From: Alteromonadaceae bacterium
Lineage (GTDB): Bacteria; Pseudomonadota; Gammaproteobacteria; Pseudomonadales; Oleiphilaceae
Assembly (NCBI GenBank): GCA_013393545.1
Contig: JABXHG010000596.1
Span: 1-11,747 of the forward strand
Reading direction: 5' to 3'
DNA: 11,747 nucleotides
Shown here: positions 4,460 to 6,260 of the stretch, piece by piece
Numbering within the stretch: the stretch's first letter is position 1
Layout of the letters: each line of letters opens with the position of its first letter
Notes under the pieces: generated by a model
Databases searched by the model: none
What the model was told of the DNA's origin: nothing
Seen by the model: only the letters and a program-made list of their open reading frames with translations
Position numbers and translations under genes: made by a program

Positions 4460-6260
<1,801 letters not shown>

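Follow-up and report, generated by a model that had tools for sequence, protein, structure and literature searches.

The nir cluster and the nirS reading frame

The closest described counterparts of the locus are the cytochrome cd1 nitrite reductases (NirS) with PDB entries 5guw, 1bl9 and 1nir, the NirS proteins of Marinobacter, and the nir cluster of Marinobacter hydrocarbonoclasticus, whose gene order is given in the excerpted text of PMC6152468 as nirFCSDLGHJEN, with nirFC transcribed in the opposite direction. A NirS is recognised by a heme c domain with CXXCH and a C-terminal d1 heme domain, both encoded in a single open reading frame (ORF), and by its activity as a nitrite reductase. The DNA analysed here, referred to as the window, comprises 11,747 bases and is taken to be a complete contig. 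Its nirS gene resembles these enzymes in possessing both domains, the CAGCH motif and similarity over the whole length, and the encoded protein is 96% identical to the NirS of Marinobacter persicus. Unlike the known NirS, the gene as present on this contig carries an in-frame TAG codon together with three further residue differences within 60 bases.

On the reverse strand, nirS is accompanied by nirD (3968..4432; PF22451/PF17805), nirL (3426..3986), nirG (2942..3442), nirH (2443..2967), the radical SAM gene nirJ (1076..2275) and the tetrapyrrole methylase gene nirE (201..1064). The forward strand carries a nirC-like cytochrome c gene (6254..6739) and nirF of the Cytochrom_D1 family (6746..7984), followed by a gene for a PhnD-like periplasmic binding protein (7977-8765), which lies between nirF and a gene for a nirQ/norQ-type AAA ATPase (8762..9544; PF07728 and PF08406). 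The names from nirE to nirF are based on gene order, for nirD by comparison with the excerpt of PMC6152468. Compared with the cluster of M. hydrocarbonoclasticus as excerpted there, the order from nirF to nirE is identical and the divergent nirC-nirF pair adjoins nirS, whereas a nirN gene was not found on the contig and the PhnD-like and nirQ-type genes come after nirF. An earlier reading of the sequence alone, referred to here as the sequence-only reading, had regarded all genes of d1 heme biosynthesis as intact. This holds for nirE, nirJ, nirH, nirG, nirL, nirD and nirF, and also for nirC, all of which are uninterrupted, but it cannot be extended to nirN, which was not found among the ORFs of the window.

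The TAG is present at 5738..5740 on the reverse strand in the letters of the contig as given and is codon 149 of nirS, numbered from the likely start ATG at 6182-6184. It separates two ORFs that share one reading frame, as had been stated previously. The upstream ORF (5738..6247, reverse strand) encodes a signal-peptide-like start and the heme c domain with CAGCH (PF13442/PF00034), and the downstream ORF (4460..5722, reverse strand) encodes the d1 heme domain (Cytochrom_D1, PF02239, E 3.7e-151), beginning with an ATG at 5720-5722 that corresponds to an internal Met in most relatives. Because the Pfam domains flank the stop codon on both sides, it sits in the linker that joins the heme c domain to the d1 domain, in agreement with the sequence-only reading. 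The same reading had all heme ligands and active-site histidines retained; this can be affirmed for CAGCH and for the histidine on the d1 side whose counterpart in PDB chain 1hzu_A is an Ala, and for these only. Both domains of NirS are therefore encoded in the window, interrupted by the TAG, while in the near-identical protein P0122 described below they are found in a single ORF.

The near-identical protein P0122 and the residues around the stop codon

The read-through NirS, with X at the position of the stop codon, was searched against 5.8 billion proteins, and the matches described here are among the best 120 of 7,998 scored candidates. The best match, P0122, is an uninterrupted NirS of 574 amino acids from the source 'lgn', where it is encoded on three contigs, the longest measuring 6,999. 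We take this source tag to denote the Logan assemblies. In the comparison at the protein level, as opposed to the DNA of P0122, 570 of 574 residues are identical to those of the window. The window has Ser for Ile at residue 140, His for Gln at residue 146, the stop codon for Glu at residue 149 and Gly for Trp at residue 159, and the residues of P0122 at these four positions are those of the solved NirS chain 5guw_M. All four differences are confined to a patch of 60 bases (5708..5767, reverse strand), delimited by the comparison with P0122 and with the locus of Marinobacter persicus IBRC-M 10445 (L001), and the other 554 residues are unchanged. The next-best proteins after P0122, among the best 120 of 7,998, are 96% identical to the NirS of the window.

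Differences from an otherwise identical sequence are thus clustered, at the protein level, with four out of four falling within 20 of 574 codons. In a simulation, four random codons of 574 fell within a 20-codon span in approximately 1.2e-4 of the draws, a test chosen after the cluster had been noticed. The sequence-only reading had considered codon 149 to be the only abnormal position, which does not agree with the differences at residues 140, 146 and 159. These three changes next to the TAG, which the sequence-only reading had missed, point to a faulty patch rather than to a single nonsense mutation.

The alignment with NirS of relatives, which had been proposed as a check, places Glu at codon 149, as the sequence-only reading had stated for homologues, and also revealed the changes at 140, 146 and 159. 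At positions where no more than two residue types occur, the window NirS has six residues that none of 11 Marinobacter loci shows. Three of these (read-through residues 161, 170 and 180, i.e., NirS residues 140, 149 and 159) lie within 5708..5767 and are lacking in P0122. The remaining three (read-through residues 64, 192 and 313) lie outside the patch and look like true features of the lineage of the window, because they are common to P0122. In a wider set of 51 loci with more than 70% identity, from which L043 was removed as a copy of L001 and in which genomes may recur, the window-only residues at sites conserved to at least 90% are just those at 149 and 159, where the relatives have Glu (50/50) and Trp (50/50), respectively. 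Ten other genes of the window with at least five relatives each show zero or one such residue; the gene at 7977-8765, having a single relative, was excluded from this count. Of the 42 loci listed, 40 span the stop position, and 38 of them have Glu there, with Ser in L029 and Val in L042; the two loci that do not span it are L013 and L032.

At the DNA level, the four residue differences correspond to sites 5710, 5740, 5747 and 5766 in the comparison with L001, all of them A/C interchanges on the forward strand, two in each direction. With respect to P0122, the genetic code requires an A/C interchange for residues 140, 149 and 159, with an extra silent difference being possible, and for residue 146 we infer the same interchange from L001. 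Within 5708..5767, A/C interchanges account for 4 of 9 differences from L001, as opposed to 59 of 816 elsewhere (Fisher p 0.003 for this contrast) and 63 of 825 over the alignment as a whole. Four to six A/C differences are also found in other 60-base stretches aligned with L001, with starts at 7915, 8119, 8546-8578 and 6359, and the density of A/C differences by itself does not single out the patch. Its distinguishing mark is that every one of these four A/C changes is non-silent and that together they make up the entire difference from P0122.

Gene conversion and mutagenesis of the diversity-generating kind were considered as causes and rejected, since A is exchanged for C as well as C for A and the comparison with P0122 shows no residue difference of another kind. 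Oxidative damage alone would produce changes in a single direction.

For Illumina sequencing, the excerpt of PMC6053417 names A/C and G/T as the base pairs most often confused for each other, and cross-talk between channels is described in the excerpt of PMC4053729. The own data of PMC6053417, as excerpted, show A to C and T to G as some of the least frequent errors, and at two sites of the patch the change has this rare direction. A short run of A/C-confused bases, in a stretch presumably covered by few or poor reads, most likely produced the TAG along with the three neighbouring residue changes. In our assessment, the TAG is very probably due to bases that were miscalled or misassembled locally within an ordinary Marinobacter nirS, and the real gene of the organism would then be intact and encode a normal periplasmic cytochrome cd1 nitrite reductase. 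Recent loss, a wrong base call and suppression of the stop had previously been offered as options; the wrong base call is favoured among them because the four clustered differences fit one class and an otherwise identical, intact protein is public, while the other two are weighed below. The supposed investment of the cell in a cofactor for an enzyme that it cannot make whole is probably not real. A short miscalled run can pass for a split enzyme or a newly formed pseudogene in an important denitrification gene, and metagenome counts of 'broken' nirS, or losses of nitrite reduction deduced from them, should first be checked for clustered differences of a single class.

Purifying selection and competing accounts of the stop codon

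Compared with L001, nirS has a dN/dS of 0.071 over residues 1-139 and of 0.053 over residues 160-574, as opposed to 0.27 inside the patch with the stop codon omitted. The two parts of nirS outside the patch gave 0.06-0.12 and 0.07-0.09 in comparisons with L018 and L041, and the neighbouring genes gave 0.00 to 0.18 against L001, except that nirG, having no silent changes, has no defined value. Outside the patch, nirS is under strong purifying selection in both halves. The dN/dS of the d1 half is low and this half has therefore not drifted, as predicted by a sequence error or a very young null allele. All but the youngest pseudogenes would be expected to show relaxed constraint or more than one lesion over their length, whereas nirS of the window has a single stop codon and a low dN/dS outside one 20-codon patch.

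These values also agree with another account, namely a real loss-of-function allele of nirS that arose very recently in this strain or in a subpopulation, perhaps one in which nitrite reduction is unneeded, and whose d1-biosynthesis genes would not yet have decayed. The TAG does stand in the letters as given, the dN/dS and the neighbouring genes would stay unaffected, as observed, and P0122 could belong to another strain. However, such an allele requires four non-silent changes of one class within 20 codons and zero residue changes in the other 554; changes following a true early stop would be expected to be scattered along the gene. The relatives speak against it as well. The genus set comprised 124 genomes and represents the genus to which G001, the source of L001, belongs; 55 of the genomes matched nirS at the DNA level and 80 at the protein level (E <= 0.001), many of the latter with distant relatives only. 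Full-length nirS is present in 50 of the 124 (71-96% identity, counted by hand), and none of these 50 has an internal stop; the same was found for three genomes with pieces of nirS only and for one relative with 49% identity. Accordingly, we regard a recent null allele as unlikely.

Read-through of the TAG by an amber-suppressor tRNA, resulting in full-length NirS, would be compatible with the open frame on either side of the codon and with the strong constraint on both halves. It leaves the three other changes in the patch unexplained, though, and nirH in the window also terminates with TAG. Suppression calls for a CUA-anticodon tRNA in the same genome, and ARAGORN found no tRNA within the window. 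A rough amber-tRNA pattern matched 118 of the 124 genus genomes, and the six matched loci that were run through ARAGORN, including the single match from the closest genome, proved to be ordinary tRNA-Arg(tct). Suppression thus has almost no probability in our estimation.

The position of the break in the interdomain linker and the Met codon six codons past the stop are also what would be expected if NirS were synthesised as two polypeptides, one with heme c and one with d1, translation of the latter restarting at the ATG at 5720-5722. Against this, no purine-rich ribosome site precedes that ATG, the restart Met is an internal residue in intact relatives, and the d1 piece would be left without an export signal. 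A search with the N-terminal half, limited to proteins between 0.55 and 1.75 times as long, returned none more than 84% identical to it among the best 120 of 1084 proteins, and the half of the window itself was absent among the matches listed. Short NirS proteins do occur among these listed matches, several of them named 'partial'. Production in two pieces is slightly less remote than suppression, and both are very unlikely. Combined into one proposal, namely that the patch is real, that a natural Marinobacter lineage has the amber codon and a changed linker in its nirS, and that a working NirS still arises by read-through or from two cooperating pieces, they gain little and the proposal is still highly improbable. 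A literature search combining nirS pseudogenes and premature stops with denitrification returned none, and a broader search found no split nirS in the titles and the beginnings of abstracts of the papers listed.

Comparison of the contig with relatives

The local error in an ordinary Marinobacter nirS, which we prefer, concerns 60 bases, and the rest of the contig was compared with relatives as well. The nearest named genome found is that of Marinobacter persicus IBRC-M 10445 (L001), with 90.8% identity over 9,685 aligned positions and an intact nirS. The plasmid collection contained 36 matching records, none of which reached 90% DNA identity (the highest match listed had 72.7% over 87% of the query), and a scan of viral contigs for the exact 46-base junction gave no match.

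The identity to L001 is patchy along the contig, with 98.8-100% over 2251-3500 (nirH and nirG) and 73-81% over 3751-4500 (nirL and nirD), which suggests either recombination between lineages or a chimeric assembly as the source of the uneven divergence at 2251-4500. The PhnD-like gene (7977-8765) diverges fast, the nearest listed protein besides that of the window itself being 71% identical. When this gene was used for a control search, the best match, P0242, lies on a contig of 11,747 bases and is accordingly taken as the protein of the window itself (two member sequences), and a separate near-identical entry comparable to P0122 was not among the results. The control gene neither backs nor contradicts the assignment of P0122 to the same strain.

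The region 10001-11747 has no match to the seven Marinobacter loci compared, and its G+C content drops to 0.48-0.49. Within it, the ORF at 11101-11535 has relatives in just 6 of the 124 genus genomes, some of them with stops or fragmented, a pattern that would be as in mobile or decaying accessory DNA.
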